DNA of 24,560 nucleotides. Origin: a virus. The DNA lies in the IMG/VR virus record IMGVR_UViG_3300034112_002540, positions 1-24,560 of that record; one strand, given 5' to 3'. Both the position numbers and the translations under genes were made by a program. The notes under the pieces are model-generated. The model was not told the origin of the DNA and searched no databases. It was given only the letters and a program-made list of their open reading frames with translations. Of this stretch, positions 16,891-24,560 are shown piece after piece (the first letter of the stretch is position 1; each line of letters opens with the position of its first letter).

Positions 16891-16943
16891 AATTTTCTCC
16901 TAAGAAATAAGTCCAAATCTTACAATCTAATGGTATATACACG

Positions 16944-16975
16944 AAAAAGCCACCCCCAAAGCAATGAGGGTGGCT
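16944..16975 (-). terminator. Rho-independent terminator after the capsid gene
   Basis: On the minus strand an 8-base-pair perfect stem (AGCCACCC pairing with GGGTGGCT, 16948-16975) with a 12-base loop is followed directly by five T residues (16944-16948, the first overlapping the stem end). This is a classic intrinsic terminator and lies about 30 bases past the capsid stop codon. It should end or reduce transcription before the fibre genes. Confidence 0.85.
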
Positions 16976-17006: not shown

Positions 17007-18014
17007 TTAGAACGAACCAAGAATTACTCTACGGTTGTCTAGAACACCAAAGCCAAGCTCTGCCCAACCATAGTAACCAGCGCGTTGCTGACGGTGGAGA
17101 CTTGGGTCTTCGTAGACCTGTAGCTGCTCCTTGACGGGCATTACGAAACTATCTCTTGTTGAAAGGTCAAGACCAACAACAAGTTCAAGATCGCTACCCT
17201 GTACAGCACCACTTAGTTGATTGGTGAAGAATGACTGATATTCTTGACCTTCGCCAAGCTCATCAAGATCACGTAGGTTAACACCAAAGATACGTGTGAT
17301 TGGAGCGCCACCGGCTGGAGCGGTGTAGATCTCACGACGAGTTACCTCGTCAACTTGATCAAAACCCCAATTACGAATATCTTCTAGAGCTTCTGGTGAT
17401 ACATACATGTCTGTTAGACGGCCACGACCAATTGAAGCAGAGTTACCACCGCTGTTGCGGCGCATAACGGTCTGCATCAAAGATACTAATCTCTTGCTGA
17501 ATAGACCGGCTGTTGCATCACCGTCATAGACGAGGATGTTGCGGTCAACGCCAGCGGCGAGAAGAGTGTGCCAGCCGTCATCGTTCATCTTCTTTGTAAA
17601 ACCAGCTTCCATTACCTGCATGGCACGACCAACGATGTCCCATCTTGCTTCGCGGGCATAGCGAAGGAGATAGTCAACCGATGAAGCGATTGTGTAGGTT
17701 GGAATCATCACGTAGTCGCCTTCCACACTGCGCTCTGGAATTCTACCGTGGCCGGGATTGGTGTAAGCGACATGCTCACCTTCTAGGCCGGGAGAAACTA
17801 GGTCGAGTGGGAATTCGGTTGTTGAACCGGCTTCCACATTGATGGTTTCGAAAATATCGCCAAGGATATTTCCAACTAGAACGCCTTTACGAAGAGGAAG
17901 TTCTAGAGCTTTAGCAAACTCACGTTGAGCAGCCGCAGCTACGTTGATATCGGCATCCCCTGACTTGCGTAGGAGAGCGATGAATTCGTCACTAGGTCTT
18001 TTATTCTCTGGCAT
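17007..18014 (-). CDS. Major capsid protein (335 aa)
   Basis: The protein forms the icosahedral shell. The length, the position after protease-scaffold and decoration genes, and the sequence all fit an HK97-fold capsid protein. The N-terminal helix (SDEFIALLRKSGDADINVAA) is followed by an extended arm (EFPLDLVSPGLEGEHVAYTN, GDYVMIPTYTIASSVDYLLR), the long spine helix (ARWDIVGRAMQVMEAGFTKK), and an A-domain stretch (GRGRLTDMYVSPEALEDIRN) that is typical of this group. The C-terminus (GYYGWAELGFGVLDNRRVIL) also fits. The ATG follows AAAAGGAGAATT, a strong ribosome binding site. The gene is richer in G+C than the fibre genes (33 of 60 bases at 17041-17100), as expected for a very highly expressed virion gene. 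It is followed by a terminator. The exact capsid family is not certain. Confidence 0.9.
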   Translation of the reverse strand: MPENKRPSDEFIALLRKSGDADINVAAAAQREFAKALELPLRKGVLVGNILGDIFETINVEAGSTTEFPLDLVSPGLEGEHVAYTNPGHGRIPERSVEGDYVMIPTYTIASSVDYLLRYAREARWDIVGRAMQVMEAGFTKKMNDDGWHTLLAAGVDRNILVYDGDATAGLFSKRLVSLMQTVMRRNSGGNSASIGRGRLTDMYVSPEALEDIRNWGFDQVDEVTRREIYTAPAGGAPITRIFGVNLRDLDELGEGQEYQSFFTNQLSGAVQGSDLELVVGLDLSTRDSFVMPVKEQLQVYEDPSLHRQQRAGYYGWAELGFGVLDNRRVILGSF

Positions 18015-18043: not shown

Positions 18044-18520
18044 TCAGGGTAGGTTGACTTCGACTTTGGCATAACCGTCAGCATCCTTAGAAGTAAGGAA
18101 GCGACCAATAAGTAACGCACCCGAAGCTGCGGCACTTGCGGCATCCTTGCGGATGTAACCAGCGGTAGCAGTGCAGGCATAGGCGGGATCACCAGCAGCG
18201 GGACTGCCAGTAACCATATTGGTAACAACGTAACCCTTACGGAGAATAGTGACTTTGCCACCCTTCTGTACTTCATCCTTGTGTTGATTAAGGTGAGTAC
18301 GGGTTAGATCCTTGTTAACAACGTCGTTAAGAAGAATACCAACGGGAACATTTGTAGCTGACACTGTTGTGTACTTCACAAGGTTTACACCTTGATCCAT
18401 TGAAGCGCCAGAACCGGCAGTAGTATCATGAACAACAACGCCGCCGCGAGTAACGGCACCATCATTGTAGAAGAAACTAATGTCTGTTTGAAGTTCGTAT
18501 CTATCTGATTTTAGAGCCAT
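18044..18520 (-). CDS. Head decoration-like protein (158 aa)
   Basis: The protein begins MALKSDRYELQTDISFFYND and contains RGGVVVHDTT, VPVGILLNDVVNKD, KGGKVTILRKGYVVTNMVTG and AAGDPAYACTATAGYIRKD. The scheme 'G.V.........PVG.l...v....G....V...G......v.G....Gd..y....G...' is that of small beta-rich capsid decoration or stabilising proteins, which sit on the outside of the shell. It lies directly before the capsid gene (29 bases between), the usual place for such proteins. The start is ATG after AAGGAGAAATAAATT. GC content is also raised here, in keeping with high expression. Confidence 0.75.
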   Translation of the reverse strand: MALKSDRYELQTDISFFYNDGAVTRGGVVVHDTTAGSGASMDQGVNLVKYTTVSATNVPVGILLNDVVNKDLTRTHLNQHKDEVQKGGKVTILRKGYVVTNMVTGSPAAGDPAYACTATAGYIRKDAASAAASGALLIGRFLTSKDADGYAKVEVNLP

Positions 18521-18541: not shown

Positions 18542-19189
18542 TCACTTACGTAGTACGTTTTCTGTTAGCCACTGAGCCACACTTGCTCTGGTAGCATGAA
18601 GTTCATCGTTTACATCAGAGGCATCGACTAAAGCAGCTTCGGTTGAATGAACACCATCAAAAAGTGTTTCAGCAACTTCTTCGATCTTTTCTTCTGAAGC
18701 TGTTACTGATGCTTTAGGATTGGCACTTTCATTTTCTTCATCCTTTGTGACATTCTCTTTGACTTCCATCTTCTTGCCACCCTTGCCCATTTTCTTCTTA
18801 TACATGGCAACGATAGCATCGAAAGCAGAATCATCTAGATTATCATAAAATGAAAGAGATTCGTCAGCTTCTGACTCTTCAAAACCAGATGACACAAGCT
18901 TTTCCTTGCGCATACGGTCTTTCTCTTTCTTCTTCATGTTCATCATCTCTGCGTCTTTAGCTGCGATTGCGTCTTGTAGCTCTTTAATAGCAATTTCGTT
19001 AGCTTTTAGTGTCTCTTCAAGAGCCTTAAAAGCTTCTGTTTTTTCTGTGAGACTAGCTTCAAGTGCAGAGATTGTTGCTGCATAGTCCTTCTCTGGCACT
19101 ACTTCAACTTGCGCTGGTGTAGCCTCATTTGTTGTTACAATTGGTGCTGACTCTTCAGCTACCACTGTTTCTACATTGGTATCAGACAT
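18542..19189 (-). CDS. Nested scaffold protein from internal start (215 aa)
   Basis: An ATG at 19187-19189, codon 262 of the protease-scaffold gene and in the same frame, begins MSDTNVETVVAEESAP. Eight bases upstream is AAAGGAG (19198-19204), as strong as the sites in front of the capsid and decoration genes. Such a site is unlikely to be kept by chance inside a coding region. The product would have the acidic head, the coiled coil and the charged C-terminus, but no protease part. The arrangement equals that of lambda C and Nu3, where the scaffold is made in excess from an internal start in the protease gene. That the shorter protein is made is an inference. Confidence 0.68.
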   Translation of the reverse strand: MSDTNVETVVAEESAPIVTTNEATPAQVEVVPEKDYAATISALEASLTEKTEAFKALEETLKANEIAIKELQDAIAAKDAEMMNMKKKEKDRMRKEKLVSSGFEESEADESLSFYDNLDDSAFDAIVAMYKKKMGKGGKKMEVKENVTKDEENESANPKASVTASEEKIEEVAETLFDGVHSTEAALVDASDVNDELHATRASVAQWLTENVLRK

Positions 19190-19972
19190 TTGAATTTCTC
19201 CTTTAGGATTAATATTAACATCGTCTTTTATATTTTCGATGAAAGCTTTACTAGCGTCTAGAATAATACTTCTTGGATTAGCTGGTTTTGAAACTAAACC
19301 TTTGCCAGAAAAAGCAATATCTCTTAAAGCCCTTCCAACTTTATAGCCTTCATATTCTCCAGTTCCACCGTAAGCTCTAAGATGTTTTGTAAGGAACGAG
19401 GATTGCTCGGTTCTTGAAATTACTTTTGGATTACCTTGTGCGTCTATTAGTGCGTAATCAAAACCGGCGAATAAACATTCCATAGATACAAACCACTTAC
19501 CTTGCTCAATTTCATCTATAATATTTGACATTCTATTTCTATTTTCTGGATTAGTCCAGCTATTATATAAAACAGCTTCTGTTATGATATCAAATTCTGG
19601 TGGAACAGTTTCGGTATCAGCTATAGCATTGCCATTTCTATCAACAACATAACTGCCAGTAATATGGCCGATTATATCGTTTTCATTATGCATGAAATTA
19701 AACTGTTTATCTTCTGGAGTTGTTCTAGCTGCCCATGTCTGTTCTGGTGGAAAAACGTCATCATTCTTATTCCAACCAGTAGAAACTAATATAGATTTAA
19801 TATAATAGAGATCAATTTGTTTAGGATTTGCGCTAGCTTTAATTTTATCAATATATTCAGATGAGTGGTTATGTTTTTCACACACCACTGCTGGGGCGCA
19901 ATATGCGACTGTAGTATCAGCCTTGATTTTTTCGGATACGCCGTCTAGTATTTCTTGTTGAAATATTTTCAT
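18542..19972 (-). CDS. Prohead protease fused to scaffold-like tail (476 aa)
   Basis: The first 240 or so residues look like a herpesvirus-type prohead serine protease of the T4 gp21 sort. A candidate catalytic His lies at 95 (FNFMHNENDIIGHITGS), a candidate Ser at 163 (WFVSMECLFAGFDY), and the GLVSKPANPRS block, characteristic of this family, is near 225-235. The second part, from about residue 262, is acidic and highly charged with a predicted coiled coil near 290-350 (ISALEASLTEKTEAFKALEE, then ELQDAIAAKDAEMMNMKKKE), as in scaffolding proteins. The protease would cleave scaffold and capsid proteins inside the prohead. The ATG follows AAAGGTAATAT. The C-terminal 215 residues probably are also made separately from an internal start. 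The catalytic residues are my hand assignment. Confidence 0.82.
   Translation of the reverse strand: MKIFQQEILDGVSEKIKADTTVAYCAPAVVCEKHNHSSEYIDKIKASANPKQIDLYYIKSILVSTGWNKNDDVFPPEQTWAARTTPEDKQFNFMHNENDIIGHITGSYVVDRNGNAIADTETVPPEFDIITEAVLYNSWTNPENRNRMSNIIDEIEQGKWFVSMECLFAGFDYALIDAQGNPKVISRTEQSSFLTKHLRAYGGTGEYEGYKVGRALRDIAFSGKGLVSKPANPRSIILDASKAFIENIKDDVNINPKGEIQMSDTNVETVVAEESAPIVTTNEATPAQVEVVPEKDYAATISALEASLTEKTEAFKALEETLKANEIAIKELQDAIAAKDAEMMNMKKKEKDRMRKEKLVSSGFEESEADESLSFYDNLDDSAFDAIVAMYKKKMGKGGKKMEVKENVTKDEENESANPKASVTASEEKIEEVAETLFDGVHSTEAALVDASDVNDELHATRASVAQWLTENVLRK
19198..19204 (-). promoter_or_regulatory. Internal ribosome binding site for nested scaffold
   Basis: AAAGGAG on the minus strand lies eight bases before an in-frame ATG inside the protease-scaffold gene. 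It matches the core of the sites before the capsid (AAAAGGAG) and decoration (AAGGAG) genes and points to separate translation of the scaffold part. Confidence 0.7.
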
Positions 19973-19989
19973 ATATTACCTTTCAAGAC

Positions 19990-20029
19990 ATTATACACAA
20001 AATGTAATATAACTACGTTTTTATGTCAA
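19990..20029 (-). promoter_or_regulatory. Candidate sigma70-type promoter before the protease gene
   Basis: In the 48-base gap between portal and protease genes, TTGACA (20024-20029) is followed after 17 bases by TACATT and, further on, by a perfect TATAAT at 19990-19995. The first pair has ideal spacing but a poor -10; the TATAAT has no good -35 at 17 bases. TTGACA also encodes the last two residues of the portal, so it may be there by chance. The placing fits a promoter for a protease-decoration-capsid unit that ends at the terminator at 16944. Confidence 0.35.
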
Positions 20030-22108
20030 TTTTTGCTCAATATATAATCCAATGACACTCTTTCTATATGAATCTATAGTCATATCTTCCATAGAAATAT
20101 TGTTCTCTTTTAACAGTAAAGAGAAGTCTTTTGGTGTTGTTGAATTATTAGATAATATAGTTGCTATAGTAGTTTCATCTACATCAGAAAAAAGTTCTAG
20201 GTTTGTTAATACATCTATTTTTAATTGTTCAAGATTATTAAACCCTGCTTTAGTTAGCTGTCTAAGATTTTTTTTATTATTTGATTTTAGATATGCGTTG
20301 GTTAATATATCAGATAATTTATCCCATGCAGTTTCAGACCATACTATTAATTCTGCTACTCCGGGTTTTGATCTAGGATTATCAATGCGTTTCTTTCTTG
20401 GACCTTCATCTTGTTTTAATGGTGGTCTGCCATTCTGGTTTGGTGGTGCTGGCTGTTTTGCTGGAGAGCCGCCACCGAACGGGGATGCGCCTTTAGGCTG
20501 TAATAGAACATCTGTTGGGACGCTAGTTTTTAAACCAACATCTTTTGGTAATAATTTTCCAGACTGTAGGCCAATTTTTTCTAAAGCTTCTTTTTGTTGT
20601 GGGCTGTGATATGGTCCAGCCTTCTTTGGGTAAGATTCATCTGCGCGATCAGAAACCTCTCTCTTAAGCCTAATCTTCTCAATTTCTGGAATCTCTTTAA
20701 ATCTCTCAAGAAGAGTCTCTTGACTAATGATATCGCGGTCAGCAAGTTGTATTAGAAGATTCTTTTCTGCTGCCTCGTCTGATAATGTCATTTGATCAAA
20801 CTGAACGTGGGCGCGATATCTAAATCCCATAGCCTTTCTTACTATTTCTATTTCTTTATCCCAGAACTTAACTAATAGGTCGCGTCCATATTGTAATCTC
20901 TCAACAAGAGTTTTTAGTGATATAAAATTATTTGTGAAACCACCGCCATTAGTTGACATGCCAGTAAGCGTTGGAGGAACGCCTAGTCCAGCATAAATAC
21001 TGTTTAAAACAGCGGTGTATTTCTCTGAGCCTAAAAATTTATATACTTCACTATTTGATTCTTTGAATGTTAATTCTGGACCCCACACAAGTTCCATAGT
21101 TCCTCCACCAACATTGCTAGCTAAAATATCTCTTAATTTATTTATAGCAGCTTTATTTGGGAGAATTTTGTGTTCAAGGCTTCCTAGTGTCCATAAACGA
21201 ATATTTGAAATAGCTCCGTCTAGTGCTGACAAGTCTGCTAATCTCATTTTTTCTAACATGATGATATCGTCAAGAATAGCATAAATCATTGGATTAGCCC
21301 ATTGTAGCCAATCGTCTTTTTTATAATGGAAAACACCTAATCTGGCTGGATCAAGTGGAATTTCTTTTTCTCCACGCTTTAAACTCTGTTTTATAGGCGT
21401 AGGCAATGTCTCTAAGACTGTGCTAGGAATATCACCATTTGGAAACTTGTCGAAAAATGTATTAGTGCTTAAAGTATAGTTCTGAGCGCCCATAAATAGA
21501 GACAAATTACCATCTTTCATCTTCACGGTTAGTGGATTAAAGAAATTATATCTCCAAGGTATTTGATTTTCTGTCACATTTGGCGTTTCTACTCTAATAT
21601 CTTTAGACAAAGACTTCATATAAGTTGTTAATTCTGGAGTCATATTCGCATAACTGCGATACACTATAACATTGCCAGCTTTGTATAAATTATTAAGAAA
21701 TCTTTCTGATCTTTCCTTACCATTTACATTTTTAAACCATTGTTGATAAAATCTTTCAACGCTTTTATTTTGATGAACTATCTCTATACCTTGACTACCA
21801 AAGTCGCCCATAAGATCAATAATATTACGGATTATGCCGACTTTATCGTAGGCATCCATGCACATTTTAATGGCACGGCGTTGCTGCTGTGGAACAGCCT
21901 CGTCTGGTCTAAATGCATAATAATCGCTAGGATTAAAGCCGGGACGAACAGAACGATTTGGCTCAATATCTATAAAATTTCTATAGTGTGTGCCTTGAGC
22001 TTTTGGCAAACCAGCATATGATTCGATATTATCAGAAAACTGTGCAAAAGCCTCTGTTTTGCTGGGTAAATCGTTATCGTTCCAAGTTATCATTTCTTCG
22101 TTGCTCAT
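20021..22108 (-). CDS. Portal protein (695 aa)
   Basis: The protein forms the dodecameric ring at one vertex through which DNA is packaged and the tail attached. Features that fit are the N-terminal region (RRAIKMCMDAYDKVGIIRNI followed by DLMGDFGSQGIEI, residues 77-110), the FLNNLYKAGNVIVYRSY core, the LGVFHYKKDDWLQWANPMIY stretch, and the motif AGLGVPPTLTGMSTNGGGFT followed by SLKTLVERLQYGRDLLVKFW, which is typical of portal wing and stem domains. The C-terminal part (about 520-590) is rich in Pro, Gly and Lys and then becomes helical. At 695 residues it is longer than most portals (about 400-550), because of this tail. It sits between the terminase and the protease genes, the usual order. 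The ATG follows TAGGAAAACC. Confidence 0.88.
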   Translation of the reverse strand: MSNEEMITWNDNDLPSKTEAFAQFSDNIESYAGLPKAQGTHYRNFIDIEPNRSVRPGFNPSDYYAFRPDEAVPQQQRRAIKMCMDAYDKVGIIRNIIDLMGDFGSQGIEIVHQNKSVERFYQQWFKNVNGKERSERFLNNLYKAGNVIVYRSYANMTPELTTYMKSLSKDIRVETPNVTENQIPWRYNFFNPLTVKMKDGNLSLFMGAQNYTLSTNTFFDKFPNGDIPSTVLETLPTPIKQSLKRGEKEIPLDPARLGVFHYKKDDWLQWANPMIYAILDDIIMLEKMRLADLSALDGAISNIRLWTLGSLEHKILPNKAAINKLRDILASNVGGGTMELVWGPELTFKESNSEVYKFLGSEKYTAVLNSIYAGLGVPPTLTGMSTNGGGFTNNFISLKTLVERLQYGRDLLVKFWDKEIEIVRKAMGFRYRAHVQFDQMTLSDEAAEKNLLIQLADRDIISQETLLERFKEIPEIEKIRLKREVSDRADESYPKKAGPYHSPQQKEALEKIGLQSGKLLPKDVGLKTSVPTDVLLQPKGASPFGGGSPAKQPAPPNQNGRPPLKQDEGPRKKRIDNPRSKPGVAELIVWSETAWDKLSDILTNAYLKSNNKKNLRQLTKAGFNNLEQLKIDVLTNLELFSDVDETTIATILSNNSTTPKDFSLLLKENNISMEDMTIDSYRKSVIGLYIEQKLT

Positions 22109-22149: not shown

Positions 22150-24147
22150 CTAATACACATCTTTCATTTGATCAGCAAACCAGCTTGGCCCATTGTATAA
22201 CTTTTCATTATCATAAGATTTTTTATCATCTCCACTCCTGCCAGTTGCAAAGCCGCCATAAAAATTGTATGCTTCTTGAGTTGGAGTTCTTTGTAATACT
22301 CTAGCTGCCATGTTTGCCATCAATAATGCAGAATATCGGTCCTTTCTCATCTTGCTCTTTTTACCAGTTCCAACAATAACTTCTGGAGTATCCCATCTAT
22401 CCCTACCATTAGCGGTCTGTGTCATTTGGATCATAGATAATTCATCTTTTAATTCTTCAATATCCATAACGCACTCTTCTAATGTGTCGAACATTCTGTG
22501 TTTTAATGAATCTTCTGATGATGATAGTCCTAGACTAATAGAATCAAAGAATGGAAATAATAATACTTTGTCTTCAAAATCTTTTCTCATACCATGATTA
22601 GACTCTGATAACCATTCATATTTAGCAAACTGGCAAGGCTCTATAATATGTAATCCTCTCTCGCCATCAGTATCTTTTGGTTTTTCATCATCTATAACGG
22701 GCCAGATTGGGAGTTCGCCTTCTTTTATTTTATCTTGATCATGTAGTGATTCTATAATAGCAATACCGCCGCCCTGTGCGTCAATAGAAATATGTATGCA
22801 TGGGAATAATAACATAAGATCTCTAATCTTTCTGGCGCAATATGAATAGAAATCTGTTTCTGACGAGTAGCCCTTTTTAACTTTTTCTTTGTGTTCAGAT
22901 CTAGTTGTTGTCCAGCAATGAACTATTCTTCTGTGGTCTGGATTTACTTCTATAACAACGATGCTAAAATTATCTACTTCAGAAGCGGGGTCAACGCCGA
23001 AGATATATCTCTTGTTTGGATCTCCCATTAAAGTTGCTTCAAAATGTATGGGGCGACCTTGAGAATCCTTTACTTCGTTATTTTGAGATATTACACATGA
23101 CTCTATTAAAGATCTTTTAAAGAACCCTTGACTATCTCTAGTAAAACATGCACCATATTCCATTTGATAAATACCAGTATGCACAGTGGCTTTTGATCTA
23201 GCAACTTGGTCAGCATCCATAAAGCCTTTCGGAAGTAATTCATATGGCATACGAATGATTGAATATTGTGTCCAATCAAAGTCTTCTGGATAATCTTCGC
23301 CACCAAATACTTCTCTTAATTTTGCTGGATTGCCTTTGCTCTTTATTATCGCTTTCCATTTTTTCCAGTATGTTGCGAAGTGATTAAAATCATAATAAGC
23401 TGTTCCAGATATAATAATCTGATTATCTTTCTTTTCACCATTGGCATCTTGAGACACTTCTTCTATTTCAATTCCTAACTCTGCTGCTTTTTTTCTAGCA
23501 GCCAGACGTTTAACATTCTGTACTGGATCTGCACTAACTGCGGCGAAACCAGCAACAACATTTTCAAAAATATCTCTAGGAATAGAAGCAAACTCATCAG
23601 CGATAATATCATTAGCTCTTTGACCTCTTATTTTTTGACCATCACCAAGTGGTAAACAGGTAATTGTGCTATCATTTATTCTCATAACACACCTATCAGT
23701 ATCTCTCCTTGGCCCGCTATCTCCATCGCACATATCTCTTAACATTGGAGAATTGCGCCATATAGTTTCCATGTATTCAAATAAAACTTTTGACTGTCTA
23801 AATGCTGCGCCAACAACTACTATCTTTCTTTTTGGCAACATAATTGCGCGAAGTATTGAGTATAAAGACAGTTTGAATGATTTACCCAGACCTCGACTTC
23901 CTATGAGCATTGGAAATTTTCTATTCCATAACTCATTAAGAATTAAAGACTGAGATGGTAATAGCTGAATATTTAAGATATGATGACAAAAGAAGGAAAG
24001 GTATTCTGGCCTACTCATTAACCATGCTAGACGAATATTAAAATCATCATGTGCTGGACTAGCAAACATCATAGGATTAAAAACATCTGCATCAACAGTG
24101 TCTAAGCCAAGCCAAGCTTCTTCTATGTGTTTTAAATTATTATTCAT
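22150..24147 (-). CDS. terL: Terminase large subunit (665 aa)
   Basis: This is the ATP-driven motor and nuclease that packages DNA into the prohead. The ATPase has a Walker A motif GSRGLGKS (residues 83-90), Walker B IIADEF with the Asp-Glu pair at 184-185, and an IIISGTA coupling motif near 245. The RNase H-like nuclease has candidate metal-binding aspartates at 386 (FGVDPASEVD), 456 (ISIDAQGGG) and 603 (KDRYSALLMANMAA). I chose the ATG at 24145-24147, which overlaps the TGA of the ClpP-like gene (ATGA). A TTG eight codons further upstream is also in frame, which would give 673 residues, but it has no better ribosome binding site. No small terminase gene is in the window. The portal follows after 41 bases. 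Confidence 0.93.
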   Translation of the reverse strand: MNNNLKHIEEAWLGLDTVDADVFNPMMFASPAHDDFNIRLAWLMSRPEYLSFFCHHILNIQLLPSQSLILNELWNRKFPMLIGSRGLGKSFKLSLYSILRAIMLPKRKIVVVGAAFRQSKVLFEYMETIWRNSPMLRDMCDGDSGPRRDTDRCVMRINDSTITCLPLGDGQKIRGQRANDIIADEFASIPRDIFENVVAGFAAVSADPVQNVKRLAARKKAAELGIEIEEVSQDANGEKKDNQIIISGTAYYDFNHFATYWKKWKAIIKSKGNPAKLREVFGGEDYPEDFDWTQYSIIRMPYELLPKGFMDADQVARSKATVHTGIYQMEYGACFTRDSQGFFKRSLIESCVISQNNEVKDSQGRPIHFEATLMGDPNKRYIFGVDPASEVDNFSIVVIEVNPDHRRIVHCWTTTRSEHKEKVKKGYSSETDFYSYCARKIRDLMLLFPCIHISIDAQGGGIAIIESLHDQDKIKEGELPIWPVIDDEKPKDTDGERGLHIIEPCQFAKYEWLSESNHGMRKDFEDKVLLFPFFDSISLGLSSSEDSLKHRMFDTLEECVMDIEELKDELSMIQMTQTANGRDRWDTPEVIVGTGKKSKMRKDRYSALLMANMAARVLQRTPTQEAYNFYGGFATGRSGDDKKSYDNEKLYNGPSWFADQMKDVY

Positions 24148-24560
24148 ATGGCTTTGTTTATTTGCGTCCAATCTTTCAGAATATTATCACAAAAACCATA
24201 ATATACAGCCTCTTCAGAGGTTAGATACCAGTTTCCATCTTTTAATTTTCTTGTTAAGAAATGTTGCACTTGTTTTAATGTTGGTTTTTTGCCAAACTTG
24301 TCTTTGAAATATTGACCATCTACGCATTTAGATACATAGATTTCAATCATTTTTTCAGCACATCGTTTATCGTATGCTGTAAAATTTTGATTATCTAAAT
24401 AACTACCATCAAATCCAGAAGAGCCATAATGACACATAAAATGCGCATTAGCAGTCATAAGCCTCCAATCAGCAGCTTGAAAAATAATACTGCTCATAGA
24501 AGAGGCTTGTCCATACGCTATGATTGTTACATATGATCTACACATAGTAATTGCGTCAAA
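24144..24560 (-). CDS. ClpP-like serine protease, 5' end outside window
   Basis: The frame is open to the right edge, with FDAIT in front of the first Met, so the ATG at 24543-24545 is probably internal. The 138 visible residues follow the ClpP fold: the nucleophile motif GQASSM (Ser-21 of the visible part) and the His motif MCHYGS (His-44), then a long helix and YLTSEEAVYYGFCDNI near the C-terminus, matching FLSAPEAVEYGLVDSI of ClpP. At the place of the third catalytic residue, Asp in ClpP, I read Asn-110 (GNWYLT). ClpP-like proteases serve as prohead proteases in many phages. Here a second, gp21-like protease is encoded after the portal, so this one's job is less clear. It could be a head protease or a host-directed one. 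Confidence 0.8.
   Translation of the reverse strand, partial: FDAITMCRSYVTIIAYGQASSMSSIIFQAADWRLMTANAHFMCHYGSSGFDGSYLDNQNFTAYDKRCAEKMIEIYVSKCVDGQYFKDKFGKKPTLKQVQHFLTRKLKDGNWYLTSEEAVYYGFCDNILKDWTQINKAI

Follow-up and report, generated by a model that had tools for sequence, protein, structure and literature searches.

A predicted scaffold gene nested in frame within a protease-like gene of an uncultured phage lineage

Results

The window (the whole stretch of DNA that was analysed, 24,560 nucleotides) is a 24.6-kb virus record standing alone, and its minus strand carries head genes in the order portal, 476-aa ORF, cement and major capsid (Table 1). In relatives of the window, a portal homologue is located upstream of the ORF in 283 of the 286 with enough sequence, and the cement and capsid genes follow downstream in 265/265 and 215/215, respectively. 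Because the stop of the 476-aa ORF and the cement match are only ~22 nt apart, a separate scaffold gene does not fit at this position. A structure model of the ORF product was built from 38 homologues. In it, residues 55-242 form a confident folded domain, residues 244-293 are a disordered linker, and helices span 295-361 and, at the C terminus, 454-474. A scaffold role for the C-terminal part is suggested by its coiled coil, by its conserved terminal helix and by the genomic position. Library matches obtained with the coiled coil (ATG16, DivIC, SlyX and the like) were dismissed as composition.

Two further features of the region were recorded. The ClpP-like protein directly before the terminase appears by eye to have a full Ser-His-Asp triad and is a second protease of the head region; its ORF is complete in one relative (L248:1231-1896; PF00574, 4.7e-24), and a match is present in 10 of the 12 long relatives. 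The portal ORF contains the strongest in-frame internal Shine-Dalgarno (SD) sequence with ATG in the window, at 21097 on the minus strand (GGTGGAGG, -9.3).

Table 1. Features of the head-gene region, in coordinates of the window
Feature	Coordinates	Strand	Remarks
ClpP-like protein	24144..24545	-	PF00574; phrog_94 head maturation protease
Portal by position	20021..22108	-	without library match
Promoter-like box TTTTGTGTATAAT	19990..20002	-	just upstream of outer start
Weak SD GAAAGG of outer (full-length) start	19979..19984	-	
476-aa ORF	18542..19972	-	protease-like domain ~55-242, linker 243-293, coiled-coil/scaffold part 295-474
Protease-like part, residues 1-246	19235..19972	-	invariant His95 (FMHNEN) and Ser163 (VSMEC)
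Internal SD AAAGGAG	19198..19204	-	GGAG in 305/305 homologous ORFs
Internal start codon ATG (Met262)	19187..19189	-	in 305/305 homologous ORFs
Nested in-frame gene, predicted 215-aa scaffold protein	18542..19189	-	
Cement/decoration protein, next gene downstream	18044..18520	-	PF22758, 2.9e-11
Major capsid protein	17007..18014	-	phrog_2522; tblastn matches Bacillus phage G major head protein weakly (2e-5)
Terminator-like hairpin after capsid gene	16948..16975	-	closes head unit
Second promoter-like box	16934..16946	-	past capsid hairpin

Within the 476-aa ORF, the minus strand reads CCTAAAGGAGAAATTCAA-ATG, that is, AAAGGAG followed after an 8-base spacing by an ATG in frame with the ORF. This ATG encodes residue 262 of 476, and 215 aa extend from it to the stop. 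A sequence-only reading of the window had proposed exactly this SD, start and 215-aa product, and its coordinates from the SD to the nested stop proved right. The same reading had put the start at the very point where protease gives way to coiled coil; the site does lie between the two parts, but the ATG falls within the predicted disordered linker (~244-293) and not at an exact boundary, as the fold ends at ~242 and the helix begins at ~295.

The anti-SD duplex energy at the internal site is -8.7 kcal/mol, compared with -8.7 at the major capsid start and -8.5 at the cement start; the outer start of the 476-aa ORF, at -3.4 kcal/mol, is far weaker. Among the 105 in-frame internal ATGs in the genes of the window, the Met262 site ranks second by SD strength. 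In synonymous shuffles, an equal SD strength was reached at Met262 in 256 of 2000 (13%) and at some internal Met of the ORF in 708 of 2000 (35%), so that chance is not negligible and the SD has no significance from the window sequence alone. The RNA at the internal SD is predicted to be no more open than the rest of the gene (0.41 versus 0.46, p 0.33).

In the N-terminal half, His95 and Ser163 are invariant in 49 of 49 members and occur in the order of the prohead-protease clan; judged from this pattern, they are likely the catalytic pair. Among the matches to the model in BFVD are several named prohead proteases, at E values from 1e-7 to 1e-4, and Bacillus phage G gp19 (E 2.9e-6), which itself matches phrog_18299, a head maturation protease. 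Aligned as profiles, the ORF family and the gp19 family run collinearly for 155 columns, and H95, S163 and KPANP fall at matching positions (E 0.0029 for the pair), but the hhalign probability of this alignment is low (10.6%). The PDB fold matches are weak and include pseudorabies pUL26N (prob 0.30, E 0.71), and a model of the protease part only (mean pLDDT 59.7) is poorer than the full-length model. Neither Pfam nor PHROGs contains a convincing match for the domain, the prohead protease Pfam models giving a single match in the 49 members (PF04586 at E 0.11), and no direct sequence links to HK97 gp4, T4 gp21, Mu I or lambda C were found. In cultured phages, tblastn returned no match to the whole protein and one match only, at E 4, to the protease part. 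On account of the fold similarity and the motifs, the N-terminal domain is probably a prohead-type protease, an assignment that is moderately supported. The fold matches to named prohead proteases, the invariant pair in clan order and the collinear alignment with the gp19 family weigh against a reading in which the ClpP-like protein, which precedes the terminase as a complete ORF and recurs in the long records, is the maturation protease and the 476-aa gene, whose N-terminal domain no sequence library recognises, encodes a scaffold or core protein in two forms; we consider that reading unlikely and continue with the N-terminal domain as the putative maturation protease.

The conservation of the internal site was assessed in 305 ORFs, comprising the window and 304 loci fetched from viral and genome contigs (some contigs were fetched twice), which represent 234 distinct ORF sequences including the window. 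An ATG with GGAG closely 5' of it, between the protease-like and helical parts, is kept in 305/305 of these ORFs, a count that is non-independent since the ORFs are related. None of the search patterns for the first relative set (six patterns) or for one later set spans the internal site; two other sets are possibly part-biased, as the pattern FNIGEFNM covers the site and MSDNHDKQ starts at it. A search for members without the site, covering relatives from four query lineages, found none. The sequence-only reading had named conservation in relatives as its check, and loss of the SD or ATG with the coding sense kept as its refutation; the site is conserved, and no such loss occurs in the 305 ORFs, despite the variable linker.

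At this site it is the nucleotides that are conserved. In 55 representatives (<90% identity, all from the first relative set, whose patterns do not span the site, plus the window), the Gly258 codon is GGA in 55/55, versus a GGA usage of 26%, and the best of the other Gly columns reaches 84% for one codon. The residue after Gly258 varies between Asp, Glu and Gly, every codon being G-initial. In a second lineage the Gly is absent and GGAG is written across AAG-GAG, encoding Lys-Glu; of 237 scored ORFs, 76 have this phase, as do five further L156-type members. The two lineages thus carry GGAG in two codon phases, AAA-GGA-G.. versus AAG-GAG, and the phase change constitutes an independent re-encoding. 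The spacing between SD and ATG ranges from 3 to 9 bases across relatives and is mostly 8 or 6. Among 107 representatives (<90% identity), the SD energy of the internal site averages -8.2 kcal/mol and is always at or below -6.4, compared with a mean of -1.7 for other internal Mets (2.65% of 1096 reach -6 kcal/mol) and of -6.3 kcal/mol for the outer starts.

The linker around the site is free to vary in sequence and length among homologues. Because GGAG and ATG are nevertheless kept in all 305 ORFs within this hypervariable linker, and GGAG is kept through the codon-phase switch, coding constraint does not explain the site, and selection at the nucleotide level on the internal start appears visible in the alignments. 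It is this conservation in relatives, not the strength of the single sequence, that makes the case for the internal site decisive. In phage P2, the scaffold of gpO is freed by self-cleavage. The same conservation argues strongly against a comparable route here, in which the full-length protein would release the scaffold solely by cutting itself in the linker, and the internal SD would be a coding coincidence: we regard this as very improbable, even though a disordered linker is a natural cleavage site and the SD arises by chance in the proportion of shuffles given above for one sequence. Internal initiation at Met262 is the reading followed below.

A promoter-like box is located just upstream of the outer start. 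Of 304 relatives, 275 have its core, TGTGTA, within 80 nt upstream of the outer start, but only 2 have it before the internal start. Because the box stands before the outer and not the internal start, internal initiation of translation is the expected source of the short product. Transcription of the short product from its own promoter within the protease region, as for herpesvirus UL26.5, is highly improbable in view of this distribution, and the weak sigma70-like match found upstream (19292-19263, 9 of 12) belongs to a class of matches whose number in the region is near chance (14 found versus 8.7 expected). Internal translation from the transcript of the long form is thus preferred. The family-wide box, TTTTTGTGTATAWT, recurs ~3 kb downstream, after the capsid-gene terminator. 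Of 264 box occurrences in 220 unique loci, 154 lie before the protease/scaffold gene and 106 after the capsid terminator, and whole records of 119-167 kb contain few copies of the box (1-7). The protease/scaffold, cement and capsid genes, from box to terminator, are likely carried on one transcript.

Discussion

It is very likely that one mRNA gives rise to two 3'-coterminal proteins, a full-length protease-linker-scaffold of 476 aa and a scaffold alone of 215 aa, both of which are predicted products. If transcription begins ~7 bases past the box, the outer start would be left with a leader of ~10 bases and a weak SD, and this combination may keep the protease form low. The weaker outer start would then yield the 476-aa protein, and the strong internal SD and ATG would yield the 215-aa scaffold. 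The long form would co-assemble with the short form via the coiled coil and C-terminal helix that both contain, carry the protease into the head and later cleave the scaffold away.

The window shows two features of the nested class, namely an in-frame internal start with SD between the two parts and a position beside the genes for portal, decoration and capsid proteins. As in the window, the scaffold of lambda C/Nu3 is nested in frame in the protease gene, and the lambda gene order, portal, C/Nu3, D and E, is the same. In contrast to the 476-aa ORF, in which no S49 domain was found, lambda C is a peptidase S49 (PF01343, 1.5e-44), and no similarity to lambda C or Nu3 was found. Therefore, the proposal of the sequence-only reading that a Nu3-like scaffold lies in the protease gene holds for the layout, the conserved site and the lambda-like order of these predicted genes but not for homology: the gene would work like Nu3 in mechanism, and sequence comparison detects no common ancestry with it. 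In lambda itself (NC_001416), the strongest internal SD of gene C precedes the ATG at codon 309 (AGGAGG, -10.5 kcal/mol); the GenBank nu3 start, codon 239, is not at this SD.

Phage Mu provides a closer formal parallel than lambda. In Mu I/Z, the scaffold start is likewise nested in frame in the protease gene and the capsid gene is next, although no cement gene lies between them as it does in the window. The Mu Z start reads CAGGAGAACAAACCC-ATG, with AGGAG 8 bases before the ATG, which is very like the window site, and in Mu I the top-ranked site of the same SD scan is the annotated start of Z. The 476-aa ORF gave no PF10123 match, and neither of its halves aligned significantly with Mu I or Z. 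A comparable internal site is present in the Mu-like phage PaMx73 (PMC4378225). Herpesvirus UL26/UL26.5 combines a protease of the assemblin type, joined to scaffold through a linker, with a shorter 3'-coterminal product that is scaffold only (PMC4498786); unlike this eukaryotic virus system, the window indicates bacterial internal initiation rather than a promoter for the short form.

The gp19 family of phage G shares the collinear motifs G.N.NxDxF, H.N, SMxC/G and PA with the window, and the capsid proteins are also weakly related. However, gp19 is a free-standing protein of 300 aa with no fused scaffold, and BLAST detected no significant similarity to it. In Eggerthella phage LE2-3, the SMG motif of the gp19-like protease is followed directly by an apparent intein-type insertion, into which the reading frame continues.

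Literature searches returned precedents (PMC4378225, PMC4498786) and no description of this protease/scaffold family. The nested protease/scaffold arrangement is of a kind already known, and the libraries searched appear to contain no description of the family. Its members, spread over hundreds of environmental contigs from tailed phages of a large uncultured group, have no detected sequence similarity to lambda or Mu and extend the range of protease/scaffold families. Nesting of the scaffold thus looks like a repeated solution for making scaffold in excess of protease and for targeting the protease into the head. Going further, and with more doubt than confidence, we can speculate that the nesting of scaffold in protease arose independently in a large uncultured phage lineage, in a family of proteases not recognised by any library. 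The gene would belong to a compact unit of head genes (protease/scaffold, cement and capsid) bounded by two copies of a lineage-specific promoter box, in which a very short outer leader would hold the protease low and the internal SD would make the scaffold high.

For annotation, the gap is systematic, as standard gene callers report a single long ORF and overlook the predicted scaffold. Conservation of a start site in two codon phases offers a clean signature that is transferable to other nested starts. Two of the relatives, L082 and L083, were found in contigs binned to SAR202 and to a Flavobacteriales MAG; these may be host hints or misbinned phage.
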